Of a DNA stretch of 14,166 nucleotides, positions 2,038 to 13,570 are shown one piece after another. The notes beneath the pieces are model-generated. The model worked only from the letters and a program-made list of their open reading frames with translations, was not told the DNA's origin and did no database searches. How positions within the stretch are numbered: the first letter of the stretch is position 1; the number at the start of each line of letters is the position of its first letter. Location: positions 1-14,166 of the forward strand of contig CADWAF010004045.1 of the NCBI GenBank assembly GCA_902984215.1. Direction: 5' to 3'. The DNA comes from Willaertia magna (lineage: Eukaryota > Heterolobosea > Eutetramitea > Acrasida > Naegleriidae). The position numbers and the translations under genes are program-made.

Positions 2038-3972
2038 TTAAAGAAAAGATTTATAGAAACCAACACATTCATAAATACTTGATCTAACTTTTCCTACAAT
2101 TTCACCAACATCTACTTGTGGAGATGATGCTTGAGTTAGATAATAAGTGTGTCCACTCCAAGAAGCCATATTGGAGTAATGAGTACCAAATAGTGGTGGA
2201 ATTTCAATGACAGAACCTCCCCCACAAACCCATTGTTTTTGTAATTTAATACCTTTTTGTAAAGGAGCTTTTAATACATTTGCGCCACCAGCCATAAATA
2301 ACATTTGAGTCAAACCAGCACCATGAACTCCTTAATGAATTATAATTATTTAATAATAATTTTAATATTTAGAAAATAAACTATATTTACAAAAGAACTT
2401 ACCTATTAATATTTGTGTATTATAAATTCTTTCTAATTGTTTTTCAAAAGGTATTGTTGCAAAATCTACAACAAACACATTTGTCTTTACACTTATACTG
2501 TCCATTGTAATTCTTGAAAATTTTGATTCCAATTCTGCCACAAGTTCCTTCATATTTTCAATCTTACGTTGAGCATCTTTTCTAAAAGGATGATACTTTC
2601 TATCAATAATAGTTATATTCACTTCTATTCTCTTTTCAGTTAGAACATTCTCATTAGCTGTTGCACCAACAACAGCATTACTATTAGCTCTATAAGGAGG
2701 AACTTTAAAACCAAAAGATTTTAACACATGTCTTCCAAAATTTACAAATAAATCCGTTAAAGGTCCACACGGATTAGTAGTTGCGATATCCTTTACAATT
2801 GGACTACTAGCTCCAGGTAAATTTACGATAGCATTTCTAAATAAAACTTTTCTGCCATTACGTGTCCAATCTTTAGTAACAATTCTTGTCGTTATTTCAT
2901 CACTTTTTGTTGTCGTTGTCTTTCCCTTAGAAGAAGAACTAAATGCCTTTTCCCACATTGATAAATAAGGTCCATCTAAATCTTGATCAATAATTAAAAG
3001 TTGTAAATTATCTCTTTTCACATTAATTTTTAAAGTTTCCAAAACGAGATATGCATTTACAAAATCTTCCATACTGTGATAAGTATTTAAAACATTATCT
3101 CTAGCAGTTAATAATACAGGATTATCAATAATTAAGATATCATCACTAATCTCTTCTTCATTCCATTCATTTACAGAAGAAAATCCAGCAAATATAGGTC
3201 TATTAATAGCTTGAAAATGTCCAGTTGGCCATTTATTTCTTGTATGAAAAATGTCAGATCTTTTACATTTACCTTTTATAGAACCTTCTGGAAATGTATA
3301 ATATCTAGCACAATTATCAATTAATCCCCACTTTTCATTACAATCATTTCCCATCGTTGTTAATTTTCCAAAATCAATTAAAACATTTTGTAATGTACAA
3401 AAAATATCGGGACCAGAATGTCGTGGTTGACGAAAACGATAACATGTAACCTTACTGCCATTTATATTATTTTTGTTATTAATATTATTATGGTTGTTAA
3501 TTTTTGTTGTTGTTGTTGTGGATAGAGGTTCACAGTAAGTTTGTTTGTTATTTCGCCAGGATTGATAAAAACCAAAAGAGAAACTGTTATCACATTCTTC
3601 TGATTGTTTTAATAGTTTTGCATAGTAAGGAACATGTTCATTTAAAACGTGTGAAAAGTATGAAGGTTCTTTATCGTTATATTCATCTTCATTATTATTA
3701 AATTCATCTTCATTATTATATTCTTCTTTATATCCATCTTTATTATCGGAATTGTAATTTTCAATAAGGTTATTTAATTGTTTATCTTGATTATTATTTA
3801 GTTTAATATTTTGTTTATCAATTAATGTGGCAATATCTAATTTTGCATTATTATTATCATTATTTAATTGATAGTGTTGTTGTTGGTGATGGAAATGTTT
3901 TTCGTATTGAATGAATAAAAAAATATTGAAAACAAAAAAAATCACCAAACCAACGATTAGTATTTTTTTCAT
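2038..3972 (-). CDS. GT61-family glycosyltransferase, type II membrane protein, two exons
   Basis: Exon 1 runs from the ATG at 3972 to 2403 and exon 2 from 2330 to the TAA at 2038, giving 620 residues. Residues 4-22 form a hydrophobic signal anchor after two lysines, as in type II Golgi/ER enzymes. A long Asn/Asp/Glu-rich stem covers about 35-105, with Thr and Asn tracts near 152-172. The catalytic part resembles GT61 (EOGT/POMGNT2-like and plant xylosyltransferases): P-V-L-L-T-A-R-D-N-V-L-N-T-Y-H-S-M-E-D (285-303), an acidic D-Q-D-L-D-G (329-334), and the hallmark I-L-I-G-V-H-G-A-G-L-T-Q-M (521-533) rebuilt exactly across the intron. Family members transfer GlcNAc or Xyl to proteins or polysaccharides in the secretory pathway; the substrate here cannot be deduced. 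The gene fires divergently from the P4H/F-box/actin gene. Confidence 0.85.
2331..2402 (-). other. Spliceosomal intron, 72 bases, phase 1, in the GT61 gene
   Basis: On the minus strand the donor is GTAAGT (2402-2397) and the acceptor ends TTAAG (2331). Removing it joins I-L-I with a split Gly codon and V-H-G-A-G-L, which restores the conserved GT61 motif in frame. The intron is almost purely A and T, lower in GC than the flanking exons. Confidence 0.92.
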
Positions 3973-4241
3973 TTATTTTTTTAAATCTCACATACTAGGC
4001 TACTGTAGTCCTAGGTGTGTTGTTTTCGCGTTGCCTCTGTGTGAAACCAAGGTTTTCCCTCCCTTTGTTGTTGTGCTACTGGTAGGTGGTCTATTAAAAA
4101 AAATAAAGTTATTTTATAAAATAAATTGATTAATAAAAAAGTTACAACAAGCCTTAAAGTTCAATTTCTAGCTGGAAACTAGAATTTAAAAATTATTTTG
4201 TAAAACTAAAAAATAAATTTTTTAATTTTAAAAAAAAAAAA
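3973..4241. promoter_or_regulatory. Divergent promoter region between the GT61 and P4H/F-box/actin genes
   Basis: This 269-base spacer separates two start codons pointing away from each other, so it should hold both promoters. The side next to GT61 is relatively GC-rich (about 3994-4090) and the side next to the other gene is nearly pure A/T. Both starts sit behind A-rich leaders: A12 directly before the ATG at 4242, and AAAAAAATAA before the ATG at 3972. A short dyad lies near 4166-4184. No TATA box or known factor site can be called with confidence. Confidence 0.55.
4166..4184. repeat. Short dyad TTCTAG-N7-CTAGAA in the divergent promoter
   Basis: Perfect 6-base arms flank a 7-base loop, CTGGAAA. 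It lies about 58 bases upstream of the ATG at 4242, in a region with little other sequence complexity. It superficially recalls heat-shock elements, but the spacing of the TTC and GAA units does not fit, so the call is only a dyad. Confidence 0.3.
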
Positions 4242-7084
4242 ATGCAAAAGATCAAAAATTTATTAAACAAAAAGAATACAGACAATAACATGTCTGAAAA
4301 TTCAAAAGAAGAGACAAAGGAAAGTAAGAAGAGTTTAAAAAAAGTGAAATGGGATGACAATAAAGAATTTCAAAAAATGTTTAAAAAACACTTTTCTAAA
4401 GAATTAGATTCTACTACTTTTTCTAGCTCAACAACTACTACAACAACAGAACAAAAAAAACAAGAAGAAGATAATGAAGATAGTATTAAATTTTGGAGAA
4501 GAACTGACTTACTTATTCCAGGTCAATCTATAACAATTCCAAAAGAAGAAAAATTAGTTCATTTACTTTCCAAACCAATTTCAAAAGAAGAAGAAAAAAA
4601 ACGAGAACTTGAAAAGGAAAAAAAAATAGAAAAAAAAAGAAAAGAACGTGAAGAAAGAAAAAAACAAGGTATTTATGATGATCCACCTAAACCACCAATT
4701 GAAACTGAAATTATTCAAAATGTAGATCGTTGTTTTACAATTTCACATTTATTAAGTGAAGATGAATGTGATGGTTTAGTTAATTTTTTAAATAAATTTG
4801 AATTTAAAAGTTTAACAGATGAATACCCAAAAGAATATAGAAATAGTGAACGTTTATTAGTTATAAGTAAAACTTTTTCAAATTTAATTTGGAAAAGATT
4901 AAAAGGTTATTTAAAAAAGGAAGATTTACAAAATGTTAGACCATATGGTTTTGATAATAATGGTAAATGGAAGGCTATTGGTATTAATGAATGTTTAAGG
5001 TTTTCTAAATATAATGAAAAATCTTTCTTTAAAGCACATATGGATGGTCAGTTTATTAGAAATGATAATGAAAAATCAATTTATTCAGTTTTAATTTATT
5101 TAAATGAAAGATATTATGGTGGAAGAACTACTTTATTAAAGAAGGTAAAGGAAGAACGATTGGTTAATAATAATAATAATAATGGAGATTTAGTAATGTC
5201 TTTTAAGAAATTGGGTAAGATAGATCCAAAAAAAGGATGTGCTGCAGTTTTCAATCAAGATTTATATCATGAAGGAGGGAAAGTAAGATATGGATATAAA
5301 TATATTTTAAGAACTGATATTATGTTTAAAAGGGTTGATAGTGAAAGTGTTCCAAGAGGTATTGTAAATTATAAAGATGAACCTTTATTTAGAAAAGTTA
5401 AAGAATTAGTTGATAAAAGTAATGAATTAGAGAAGAATGGACAAGTAAAAGAAGCAACTGAAAATTATTTAAAAGCTCAAGAAATTCAAGTTGAGTTATC
5501 ACATTCAATGTATAATGTTGTTAAACGTTTTAATGGAAAATTAAGTTATTTAGAACAGATATTACCTGAAGAAGTATTTGTAATTATATTTAGTTATTTA
5601 ACAAGTGAAGAAGTTGTAAAATCTATTTTATTGTTAAATTATAATTTAAATCAAATTGGAAGAAATGAAAATTTATGGATGATCTTTTATGAAAGAAGTT
5701 GGCCAAGTAATAAGGATAATCAAATTATTTACAAGTTAGAAAGTAAATTATTGAATAATGTTGGTAATAATAATGAAGATTTAGAAGAAGATGTAGAGGA
5801 ATATAAAGATTGGTATCAAACATTTATTTGTAGAAAGTATTTAGAAAAAGATTTTTGTGCAGTTTTATTGGATCCAGGTGCTTCAAAATATAGTTTTACT
5901 TTACAAACAAATGAAAAGTGTAAAGAATCACATTCTGTTTGTGCAACTGTAAGTGGTTACTTTAATTTTTTATTACTAAAAATTGTAATTATTTAAAAAC
6001 ATATTGTAAATTAAATCATTAGCCTAATCATCCCCACTTTTATTATCCAGGTTATGGTTATGATGATATGTTAGTTGGGGATCGTGTTGCAATTTATCAT
6101 ACAGCTAAACGTCCACTATTTACAAGAGATGGTACTATTGAATCATTTGATAATTTTAAGGTATTGATTTATCAATTGTATAAAGATGATGTACGTGTTC
6201 CTTTAAGAAAACATCCTTTATTGATTGCTACACATCCAAGATGGATAAATGAAGATTTAGAAGAAATTAAGGAAAAAGTATTTGAATTGGGTATTCCAGC
6301 AGTTTGTTTTGTTGACACATCAAAATTAATTTCATTGAAATATCAATTACCAACAAGTTTACATATTCAAGCATCATCTTCAGGTATTTATGTTACTCCA
6401 ATTATTAATGGTGAACCAAAAATTGAAAATAGAAAATGTGTAGATATTTCTGTTGCTTATATTACTGAATTCGCACAAATGAAGGATTATTATTCAATTA
6501 GCTTTAATTATCGTATTGCCAAAAAGTTTTTATGTTTTTCACCTTTTGATAGAGAAAAACAACCTTTTGAATATGAACAATATAAAAAGCAAGTAAATGA
6601 AGTTAATGTTGGAAGTAGTTATTATCCAAAGTTAATGTCTTCAACAGTTAGATTAGGTTATGGTGAATTATATTTTGGTGAAGGTAAGGTAATGAAGATT
6701 GTGAAAGAAGCGTTAGAAGGATTGGAAAGTGACGACATTAGAAAAGAATGTTTAAATCACATAATTGTCACTGGTGGATTGGCTGTACTTGATGGATTTA
6801 AAAAACGTTTAGAAAATGAATTGACTAATACTTTTGGAAAGGAATTAGATTTAAATACAATTGTTTATCAAGAAAAAAGACCTGAAAAACCAACAAAAGA
6901 TGATTATTATAGTAATAGAGATAAAAAGGTAGAATATGAAGGATGTGATATGGATGTATTAGAAGGAGCTAAGATATTTAGTTCATTATCTAATGTTAAA
7001 CAATATTATTTATTTAATAACAATGAAAAAGAATTAAACATTGACACAACATACCATAGGAGATCCCGAACCACAAACAAATGA
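4242..7084 (+). CDS. Fusion: prolyl-4-hydroxylase-type 2OG oxygenase + F-box + actin-like domain
   Basis: Two exons (4242-5948, 6023-7084) encode 922 residues, ending in TGA. Residues 1-150 are charged and partly coiled-coil (K/E-rich 113-142), with a Ser/Thr tract at 57-69; M17 is an alternative start. Residues about 160-365 form a 2OG-Fe(II) dioxygenase of the P4H class: H266-x-D268 and H343 as iron ligands, and K353 in the 2OG position (inferred by alignment with PHD2/collagen P4H). Residues 380-420 are a helical hairpin. Residues 434-487 are a typical F-box (LPEEVFVIIFSYL, then ENLWMIFYERSW), the Skp1-binding module of SCF ubiquitin ligases. From about 538 to the end an actin fold follows, with a D-P-G-A-S phosphate-1 loop, a D-D-x-L-V-G-D segment, R-V-P-L-R-K-H-P-L-L-I, and V-T-G-G (818-821). 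The phosphate-2 loop (DSGDG in actin) reads A-S-S-S-G, so ATP hydrolysis is doubtful. It is probably cytosolic or nuclear. Each domain is clear; the joint function is unknown. Confidence 0.85.
5949..6022 (+). other. Spliceosomal intron, 74 bases, phase 0, inside the actin-like domain
   Basis: The donor GTAAGT starts at 5949 after the codons for C-A-T; the acceptor ends TTAG at 6022. Splicing is phase 0 and joins to P-N-H-P-H-F-Y-Y-P-G, which leads straight into the actin-like D-D-M-L-V-G-D segment. Without splicing the frame ends in a hydrophobic tail and a stop at 5996. The intron splits the actin domain, so the F-box and actin parts must share one transcript. Confidence 0.88.
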
Positions 7085-11169: not shown

Positions 11170-12068
11170 TTAAGGTTTTTGTTTGTAACCATTTAAAGAG
11201 TTAATTAAAGTAAATACTTTATCTGCCAAATACCACTCAATATTATATTCGTTTTTAGTTCTACTCTTCTTTTTTATAGTTAAGTGTAAAAATACATCAC
11301 CGTCAGATTCTTCTTTTTATAAGAAATGTTTCAATTTCTTTAAATTCAGTATCATTAACAAATAATTCTTTATCTTTTACATCTTTTAAAAACTGAATAA
11401 GTTGTGGTGTAGTCTTTTTAGCAAAAGAATTTTGTTCACCTGTTGAACTATTCATTCTTAATTGACTGCTGACTTAATAGTTTAGGAGACCGAGTCTTTT
11501 GTGGTTTGTTTATTCCTTTTGAATGAATAGCTTTAGTGTTGTTATCCACAGAAGAGCTTGTTACTTTGTCAACTTTTTGTGGTGTCATGCCAGTGTCTTT
11601 AAGAACATATTTATATTCTAACAGTTCGTTTTTGCTTGCTTTTTTAGGAATTTCTTCTTCTAGCAACTCAATTTGTTTCATTCCCTTTCTGATATCCTTA
11701 TCAAACAGCTTTGTAAAATCTTTACACCATCCACTAACTGTTTCATAACAAAACGTTTTACTAAACTGTTGTTGTACACCAGTTACTGCTTTTACAAAAG
11801 TTTTTGAATCTTGTGGTAGTAGAGCAACTTTAGGTGTGGTAGTTAAAATAGGTAACAAATCAAACGCATATGATCTTTGACCTTGGTTTCTTCTTATTTT
11901 ACAAATATATTGGTTAACTTGATAAATTATGGCGTCTTTGTCAATTATTCCAACAGGTCTTTTGTTTGTAGTCCTGTCATTCTGAAGGTAGACAAAGAAA
12001 GATACAACTTGTGTTAAATATTTTATGTTGTTGTTAGCATTACTTTCTATTAAATTAATATTGTTCAT
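11170..12068 (-). pseudogene. Unrecognised protein family, copy A, in three broken frames
   Basis: The ATG at 12068 opens 206 residues to a TAG at 11448. A second frame (11455-11303, 50 residues from an ATG overlapping that stop) continues with T-T-P-Q-L-I-Q-F-L-K-D-V-K-D-K. A third frame (11313-11170, 47 codons) gives E-E-S-D-G-D-V-F-L-H-L and W-Y-L-A-D-K-V-F before a TAA. Middle and last frames meet at an A5 run (minus strand) at 11314-11318, a one-base slip. The first part has V-G-I-I-D, N-Q-G-Q-R-S-Y-A-F-D-L-L-P and K-D-F-T-K-L-F-D-K-D-I-R-K-G. The same blocks recur in copy B, so they are protein and not noise. I recognise no family and see no catalytic motif, signal peptide or membrane segment. 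It could be decayed, carry unseen introns, or contain sequencing indels. Confidence 0.6.
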
Positions 12069-12489
12069 GGTGCAGTTGTTTTTTTGAGATTTTGGTTGTC
12101 TTTCCTGTCCTTTACTTTTTTCAAATAATAAATTAGTTGAGGCGATGTCATTTCATAAACACGAGCTAAATCATGATCTTTCCTTTTCTAACGTAATTAT
12201 CAATTAGTTTTGTAAAATCACAATATTTTCCACCAACTGATTTATAAAAAAAAACGTTACAAAATAGTAAACGTTTGCTTTTTGTATTAGCTTTAACAAA
12301 ATGAAAAGAGCAGTCCACATTAATTTCAGACTGGAAAGTTAATTGAGGTACCAAATCAATAGCGTGTGACCTTTGACCTTCTCTTTTTTTAAGTTTTGAA
12401 ATGTATTTGTTGACTTTATCAATAACAGCTTCTATATCAATTATTCCAACTAATCTTCTTGTCCTGTTGGAAACTAGTTTTTTTAGAGT
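12065..12489 (-). pseudogene. Unrecognised protein family, copy B, 5'-less and frameshifted
   Basis: The frame opens without an ATG after a TAA at 12492-12490 and runs to a TAG at 12166: L-V-G-I-I-D, K-V-N-K-Y-I-S-K-L, E-G-Q-R-S-H-A-I-D-L-V-P, F-V-K-A, and D-F-T-K-L-I-D-N-Y-V-R-K-G. These align with copy A in the same order and nearly the same spacing, at roughly 40 percent identity by eye. A shifted frame then gives M-T-S-P-Q-L-I-Y-Y-L-K-K-V-K-D-R-K, matching copy A's second frame, and stops at a TGA (12067-12065) that overlaps copy A's ATG. The C-terminal block of copy A is absent. Its 5' end abuts the AT desert, so the start of the gene is lost. This looks like an old, decaying tandem duplicate. 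Confidence 0.6.
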
Positions 12490-13570
12490 TTAATTAAAAA
12501 AAGAAAAATCTAAAAATATTTTTAAAGAATTAAAAATAATTATAAAATATATTTAAAATATAATTTTTTTTTTCTTTATTAAATAATAAAAATTATATTA
12601 TTATTAATTAATATTAAATATTAAAAAAATATTATTATAAAAAAAATTATTATTAAAAATATTAAGTATTAAATATTAAAAAAAAATTATAAAAAATTTT
12701 TTTTTGTAAATATTAATAAGAATTTTAAAAAATTTAATTATTATTATTATAAAATAATATTTATTATGATATAAAAAATATAATATAAAAAATTAATTAT
12801 TTATATAATAAATTTTAATTATAAAAAATATAAATATTATAATATAAATAATAATATAATTATATAACATAAAAAATAAAATATAAAAAATTTATTATTT
12901 TTTATTTATTTTAAAAAATATTAATTTTATTTTTTTATTAATAATTTAATATTATAATTATATATAATTGTTATATTTTAAATAATTAAATTAAAATTAT
13001 TTTTATTTTTTAAAATTTTTATTTTTTTATATTTTTTTATTTTAAAAAATTTATATATAATTAATTAAAAAATTAAAGTTTAATTAAAAATTAAAATTAA
13101 AATTAAATAAATATAATTAAAAATATATATAAATATATAAAATTAAAAAAATAAAATAAAAATACTTTTAATAAAATATAATATATAATAATAATATTAT
13201 TTATTATAAAAACAATATTTTTAATTTTATAAAATAAAATTAACTTAAAAAATATATAAATTTTTTTTAAAAATTTTATATATAAATAAAAAATAATAAT
13301 ATAATATAAAAATTAAATAATTATTTATTTATTATAATATAAAATAATAATTATTTTAAAAATATAAAATATATTTTTATATTATAAAAATAAAAAAAAA
13401 TTAAAAAAAAATAATTATAAGTATATTTTTTAATAATATAATTTTTTTAAATAAAATACTTTATTATAAAAAATTAATTTATAATTTAAATAAATAATTT
13501 TTATATAATGAATGTTATTATTATAATTATTAATATAGTTGTTAATGAATATAAAGAAAATATTAAAATA
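12490..13570. other. AT desert, about 1.1 kb nearly free of G and C
   Basis: The stretch consists almost wholly of A and T. Uninterrupted G/C-free runs include 12869-12969, 12971-13077 and 13245-13420 (176 bases). No ORF, tandem unit or RNA gene is visible. It is made of short mixed A-runs, T-runs and TATA/ATTA steps, not a clean microsatellite. It separates the decayed gene pair from the right-hand island. Confidence 0.85.

Follow-up and report, generated by a model that had tools for sequence, protein, structure and literature searches.

KDM2A and KDM2B carry a 2-oxoglutarate (2OG) oxygenase and an F-box in one chain; they are histone demethylases of the JmjC type, which also contain CXXC and leucine-rich repeats and lack an actin fold. 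In Dictyostelium, the amoeba F-box protein JcdI/Fbxo13 is described as a Skp1-bound, O2-dependent non-haem oxygenase (PMC9485057), and Pro143 of Skp1 is described as the residue hydroxylated by PhyA (PMC7864055). The plant protein ARP8/SUSA2 (At5g56180) consists of an F-box followed by an actin domain and binds the Skp1 homologue ASK1; the published account proposes the actin domain of this single-copy protein as a substrate holder, describes mutants in nucleotide-related residues that still complement and reports the combination of F-box and actin from the plant lineage only (PMC7562919). Here we analyze a 14,166-nt stretch of Willaertia magna DNA (GenBank assembly GCA_902984215.1, contig CADWAF010004045.1; hereafter the window), in which a gene at 4242..7084 on the + strand encodes a 922-residue protein predicted to combine a 2OG-Fe(II) oxygenase, an F-box and an actin-superfamily domain, in that order. 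W. magna is a free-living heterolobosean amoeba and is reported to be non-pathogenic and a near relative of Naegleria.

As judged by sequence comparison, this three-domain protein belongs to a family found in Willaertia and Naegleria, well beyond chance. We put the probability that it is a three-part substrate receptor of the Skp1-cullin-F-box (SCF) type, with a built-in hydroxylase and an actin-fold client site, at roughly 0.5.

Results

The gene has two exons. Exon 1 (4242..5948, + strand, residues 1-569) encodes an N-terminal tail, the oxygenase, a TPR-like hairpin, the F-box and the beginning of the actin fold; exon 2 (6023..7084, + strand, residues 570-922 and the stop codon) encodes the remaining actin fold and a C-terminal tail. 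The intron between them (5949..6022, + strand) is 74 bases long, lies in phase 0 and reads GTAAGT...TTAG. Splicing 4242-5948 to 6023-7084 in silico yielded 922 residues followed by a stop, and unspliced read-through of the intron ran into a stop at 5994-5996. This reproduces the intron and the product of an earlier model-made reading of the same DNA (the original prediction), and the W. magna protein deposited at NCBI, ABK040_003979 (P0001), is of equal length, with four differences from the window protein (E79D, N181D, K598E and K830Q). The splice junction aligned gap-free in the Naegleria proteins P0002 and P0003.

Only the remaining actin fold rests on the splice, because a single open frame (4158-5996) covers the oxygenase, the F-box and the first section of the actin domain. 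Together with the matching NCBI protein and the same domain order in Naegleria, this frame bears out the proposal that one gene spans all three domains, with its intron within the actin part. We considered whether the join could instead have arisen through an error in the assembly or in the gene models. It is known here from predicted proteins, and the deposited N. fowleri model P0003 (FDP41_008733) lacks part of the F-box. The same order nevertheless occurs in proteins of both genera, and the ENA fragment P0010, near-identical to P0003 where the two overlap, retains the F-box stretch; the missing part in P0003 is probably a gene-prediction error. A W. magna genome paper describes the use of RNA-seq and BRAKER2 (PMC11702301), and ABK040_003979 presumably originates there. 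An artefact is, in our judgment, almost certainly not the explanation.

Protein searches recovered the order of 2OG oxygenase, F-box and actin in Naegleria. The order oxygenase, hairpin, F-box, actin is shared by W. magna, four N. lovaniensis proteins (P0002, P0006, P0007 and P0009) and one of N. gruberi (P0008), and the same domain order appears in two N. fowleri models, P0003, with its partly missing F-box, and P0013, with a sub-threshold actin match. All three Pfam models exceeded their cut-offs in P0002 and P0007 (2/14, counting 13 relatives and the window protein), and individual domains were weak in P0006 (2OG, 24.1 bits), P0009 (actin, 26.5 bits) and P0008 (F-box, 19.6 bits). Over the 15 pairs formed by six full-length members, mean identity was 58.8% in the oxygenase, 48.0% in the F-box and 33.7% in the actin domain. 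Such a gradient is as expected if the enzyme is constrained and a presumed receptor is free to diverge, and the four N. lovaniensis copies fit this as well.

The oxygenase domain (4710..5336, + strand, residues ~157-365) was assigned from Pfam and from conserved ligands. 2OG-FeII_Oxy_3 (PF13640) matched residues 253-355 at 1.6e-8 (35.8 bits, above the cut-off of 27), and H266-M-D268, H343 and K353 stand where they had been placed in the original prediction (codons 5037-5039, 5043-5045, 5268-5270 and 5298-5300, + strand). We take H266, D268 and H343 to be Fe ligands and K353 to be the 2OG ligand. Across an alignment of 51 domains, H266, D268 and K353 were present in every row (51/51) and H343 in 49/51. 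The alignment comprised 12 family rows, two other proteins, and 12 viral and 25 bacterial contig rows, drawn from 37/60 viral and bacterial loci (12/13 viral, 25/47 bacterial), the window and 13/21 returned proteins; the long protein P0015, which also contains an oxygenase stretch, was not included, and a further set of rows (A5) used 13 of these viral and bacterial loci, with L061 dropped.

When a profile of the window domain and its relatives was searched against the PDB, the nearest solved sequences were prolyl 4-hydroxylase (P4H) enzymes, namely 3ITQ and 5HV0 (3e-18), 5C5T (2e-15) and 3GZE (3e-13), and the Dictyostelium PhyA structure 6T8M reached only 0.007. We assume 3ITQ and 5HV0 to be bacterial enzymes. 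5C5T is given as vCPH and 3GZE as the algal CrP4H (PMC7864055). The earlier label "prolyl-hydroxylase-type" thus fits the family of the domain, but prolyl specificity was not borne out; the sole NCBIfam match was "Fe2+-dependent dioxygenase" at 0.07 (12.6 bits vs a cut-off of 143). The oxygenase is probably catalytically active, because its Fe and 2OG ligands are near-invariant and P4H enzymes are nearest by profile.

We asked whether the protein could be a second Skp1 hydroxylase, in which the F-box would bring the oxygenase to Skp1 and a C-terminal proline would be hydroxylated as by PhyA in Dictyostelium. A W. magna Skp1 (locus L090, G000:C294) carries NDFTPEEE near its C-terminus, a stretch that we take to be the PhyA site. 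Its proline probably occupies the position at which human Skp1 has glutamate (PMC7864055). The genome, however, encodes a separate PhyA/PHD-like enzyme (L022, G000:C72), which among solved proteins matches DdPhyA best (6T8M, 6e-21), and the profile distances given above place the window family near P4H enzymes and far from PhyA. We consider a second Skp1 hydroxylase highly improbable, and with a PhyA-like enzyme elsewhere in the genome and PhyA itself remote by profile, Skp1 was set aside as the oxygenase target.

The actin-superfamily domain is divided by the intron. Its first part (5853..5948, + strand, residues 538-569) contains the phosphate-1 loop D544-P-G546, and its second part (6023..7030, + strand, residues 570 to ~905) contains the adenosine-loop G820-G821. 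Three approaches agree with the actin-like domain that had been predicted from about residue 538 to the end. Pfam Actin (PF00022) matched the window protein at 6.7e-17 (61.6 bits, above the cut-off of 27; best stretch 600-737). An HHalign comparison of seven long-form members with nine actin-family proteins of the W. magna genome gave 99.2% probability over 348 columns. Column-shuffled controls (n=5) gave at most 0.4%, so the actin similarity is well beyond chance. When a profile built from six members over their C-terminal ~390 residues was searched against the PDB, 148 distinct sequences matched at E<=1e-3, with a best value of 1.4e-14; among the 60 matches listed, every one was an actin or an actin-related protein. 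Conventional actins were the best solved matches, and the similarity spans most of the actin fold.

Residues for ATP hydrolysis are largely lost from this domain. In actin, Q137, D154 and H161 (actin numbering) serve in ATP hydrolysis. Positions Q137, D157, G158 and H161 are substituted in 7/7 long-form members and D154 is retained in 2/7; D11 is retained in 6/7, and G13 and the adenosine-loop G-G in 7/7. The window protein has S, Q and Y at Q137, D154 and H161, and it retains D11, G13 and the adenosine-loop G-G. The C-terminal domain is probably not an ATPase, as far as its sequence tells. Actin-related proteins need not hydrolyze ATP, so this loss bears on the working mode of the domain and not on its fold.

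The similarity across most of the actin fold, with conventional actins as best solved matches, could also indicate a cytoskeletal regulator. The actin fold would then join or mimic actin and bind actin-binding proteins, the oxygenase would hydroxylate actin or a partner, and the F-box would remove the complex. The W. magna genome has 37 actin-family matches by an exon-by-exon count. The ATPase residues are mostly gone, however, and of 342 positions aligned to one of the conventional W. magna actins only 64 are identical. We regard a cytoskeletal role as unlikely.

An AlphaFold2 model of the window protein, built with 14 sequences, had a mean predicted local distance difference test score (pLDDT) of 65.5 and a predicted template modeling score of 0.44. 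In the oxygenase (161-360) pLDDT was mostly 73-91, lower near 231-240 and 301-320; in the actin region it was mostly 65-92 at 541-710, apart from lower values at 574-582, and ranged over 63-88 at 741-850. Structure prediction of the 922-residue product, which had been suggested as a check, returned at 541-700 the succession of strands and helices typical of actin, but the model alone was not decisive for an actin fold. The actin assignment is decided by the sequence profiles and not by the model.

Between the oxygenase and the F-box lies a TPR-like helical hairpin (5373..5516, + strand, residues ~378-425), modeled as two helices (381-398 and 402-418); TPR matches below threshold occurred in the relatives P0004 (0.17) and P0014 (0.0046). 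The F-box (5541..5702, + strand, residues 434-487) was assigned from a weak F-box-like match in the window protein (0.029), from relatives and from a family profile. F-box-like exceeded its cut-off in 7/13 scanned relatives (P0002, P0006, P0007, P0009, P0011, P0012 and P0013), fell under it in 4/13 (P0004, P0005, P0008 and P0010) and gave no match in 2/13 (P0003 and P0014). A search of the PDB with a profile built from the F-box stretches of 11 members gave 33 sequences at E<=0.1. Their names identify them as F-box proteins, with FBXL5 best (2.9e-8) and SKP2 and KDM2A/B lower down; a match labeled p19 is presumably the SKP2 F-box. The F-box predicted at 434-487 therefore finds support at the level of the family, but the window copy itself remains sub-threshold.

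Genome scans of the W. magna assembly (19.2 Mb, 894 contigs; the window is contig 621) counted at least 3 Skp1, at least 7 cullin and at least 104 F-box-like matches, lower bounds because the counts were made exon by exon. With Skp1, cullins and F-box-like motifs present, SCF ligases are expected in this organism. Two other loci in these scans are recorded here in their own right. L091 (G000:C189) is a 423-residue frame with a Skp1-like domain at its end. At L097 (G000:C122:2001-11451), small frames for F-boxes and for Ras-like GTPases, the latter with a CaaX-like end, form an array on the strand opposite to two divergent actin genes; it looks like intron-split F-box-GTPase fusions.

Shorter relatives also exist. 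A second W. magna gene (L011, 1279-3456, G000:C281) is an intronless frame of 725 residues, represented at NCBI by the 705-residue protein P0016, with strong matches for both the oxygenase (1.9e-13) and the F-box (6.1e-10). Protein searches of the W. magna genome found no further copies besides this gene and that of the window. The oxygenase and the F-box are both above cut-off in the metagenome proteins P0017 and P0019, and P0004 (EukProt), P0005 and P0018 have the oxygenase with an F-box below cut-off. We compared the C-termini of the short forms P0016, P0017, P0018, P0005 and P0004 with the actin-like profiles. As single sequences against two separate profiles they gave 0.1-11.5%; against the merged profile P0016 gave 62.6% and the other four 0.3-0.7%. 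A set containing P0013 gave 96.1%, and P0016, P0017 and P0018 alone gave 2.4%; P0013 by itself is clearly related to the long-form C-terminus (99.1%). A phmmer search of the PDB with P0016 returned no actin match. The wider claim that shorter paralogues also contain an actin fold was dropped, as neither the C-terminal profile tests nor this search gave a significant actin match.

Phylogenies were built for the oxygenase and actin parts. In the oxygenase tree, computed without L089, a branch with support 99/98 separates 12 family rows from 24 bacterial and 12 viral rows, and P0014 and P0021 fall among the family rows. Naming a virus or bacterium as the source of the oxygenase was considered and set aside: the family stands apart from the bacterial and viral rows of this tree, which has long branches and an unsettled bootstrap. 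In the actin tree, which took 17 of the 37 actin-family matches in the genome and has long branches, eight family rows form one group (100/100) against the 17 W. magna actins. Assignment to a closest actin or Arp type was likewise set aside, as this tree, in which P0013 is one of the long branches, did not resolve it. Both trees separate W. magna first from the other long forms. Support for this is good in the oxygenase tree (97/92 for the long-form group, 100/97 for its Naegleria copies) and weak in the actin tree (88/78 and 88/90). Because both trees place W. magna first, the oxygenase and actin parts appear to share a history.

Elsewhere in the window, a glycosyltransferase-61-like gene (2038-3972, - strand) lies head-to-head with the oxygenase gene, with ~270 bases between them. 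PF04577 matched it at 3.9e-5 over 2362-3972, slightly below cut-off, and the frame 2038-2331 resembles, by eye, its second exon. Two adjacent frames on the - strand, 11448-12152 and 12166-12489, contain a similar segment, VGIID..A.I..VN.YI.K....GQRS.A.DL, and are perhaps a tandem duplicate; the former has no Pfam match. The region 12500-13500 is ~1 kb at 1-2% G+C with many imperfect A/T tandem repeats.

Discussion

If the protein is a three-part SCF-type receptor, its F-box would dock Skp1 and thereby a cullin ligase, its C-terminal actin fold, with most ATP-hydrolysis residues gone, would bind a client, and its P4H-like oxygenase, drawing on Fe(II), 2-oxoglutarate and O2, would hydroxylate either this client or a neighbor. 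Recognition, modification and probably ubiquitination would thus be coupled in a single assembly responsive to O2 and 2-oxoglutarate. The SCF adaptor first proposed for this gene, in which the actin fold acts as receptor, is plausible and has a parallel in plant ARP8/SUSA2. We advance more tentatively a self-contained hydroxylate-then-ubiquitinate adaptor, in which the pseudo-actin would hold the client, the oxygenase would mark it within the complex and the F-box would deliver it to SCF.

Several observations weigh against the three-part receptor. The F-box-like match in the window protein (residues 441-479, 14.6 bits) falls under the Pfam cut-off of 24.3, the window F-box is not in the list of at least 104 F-box-like matches of the genome, the deposited P0003 model is without part of its F-box, and pLDDT is below 50 at 433-476 and 482-536, nearly the whole F-box. 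On the actin side, the match of N. fowleri P0013 is sub-threshold at 19.9 bits, and the C-termini of the five short forms are not significantly actin-like by sequence. The F-box also sits mid-chain, vs N-terminal in SUSA2. Finally, the presence of an F-box next to an oxygenase does not necessarily imply that a client is ubiquitinated, because the overexpression effect of JcdI is reported to be F-box-independent.

This last point leads to a different reading, in which the oxygenase is the working part, the F-box serves only self-control through Skp1, setting stability or level in an O2-dependent, JcdI-like manner, and the actin fold aids placement or assembly. For JcdI, a higher Skp1-bound share is reported to go with a lower JcdI level, and the overexpression effect to need the oxygenase and not the F-box (PMC9485057). 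In the present family the oxygenase is the best conserved domain and the F-box of the window is weak, which fits such self-control. However, the JcdI domain is a JmjC domain, hence the parallel is functional only, and retention of the actin domain in 7/7 long-form members (P0009 lying just below the cut-off) suggests a wider binding role. We view self-control as the sole function of the F-box as a possible but doubtful account, and return to the three-part receptor.

If the hydroxylate-then-ubiquitinate form of that receptor were true, protein turnover would read O2, iron and 2-oxoglutarate directly and a separate hydroxylase would not be needed. One could then ask directly whether a ligase receptor creates its own O2-dependent degradation mark, and the Willaertia/Naegleria family would make a hydroxylation-coupled ligase directly testable. 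The oxygenase-F-box core in P0017 and P0019, and more weakly in P0004, P0005 and P0018, would extend the family beyond heteroloboseans. To our knowledge, other O2-sensing hydroxylases are proteins distinct from the ligases that they serve, or are JmjC-paired as in JcdI.

A text search of the open-access literature found no description of an oxygenase, an F-box and an actin domain in one protein, in agreement with the original claim that no described protein has this domain order. Each domain pair nevertheless has a precedent, F-box and actin in ARP8/SUSA2 and F-box and JmjC oxygenase in JcdI, and the ARP8/SUSA2 parallel, unmentioned in the original prediction, lowers the novelty of the F-box-actin half. 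The window oxygenase resembles prolyl 4-hydroxylases and PKHD-type hydroxylases in family and in the H-x-D...H...K ligands; the prolyl 4-hydroxylases 3ITQ/5HV0, 5C5T and 3GZE were solved as stand-alone enzymes, unlike the fused oxygenase described here. The family F-box profile also matched the F-boxes of KDM2A and KDM2B in the PDB, but these proteins differ in their JmjC kind of oxygenase, their CXXC and leucine-rich repeats and their lack of an actin fold. PhyA is likewise a 2OG oxygenase tied to SCF biology (PMC7864055, PMC9485057); it differs from the window oxygenase in its profile match of just 0.007, and W. magna has its own PhyA-like enzyme. JcdI combines an F-box and an oxygenase in one amoeba protein, as the window protein does, but its oxygenase is JmjC, its F-box is near the N-terminus and the account cited describes no actin domain (PMC9485057); among Pfam matches at E<=1, the window protein has none to the JmjC family. 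ARP8/SUSA2 has the same succession of F-box and actin domain, given the sub-threshold window F-box, and only these two domains are described for it, not an oxygenase. The likeness is one of described domain order, and no proteins named plant ARP8 were among those returned by the window-family protein searches. A combination of F-box and actin reported as plant-only (PMC7562919) is thus predicted here in a distant eukaryote and joined to an oxygenase.

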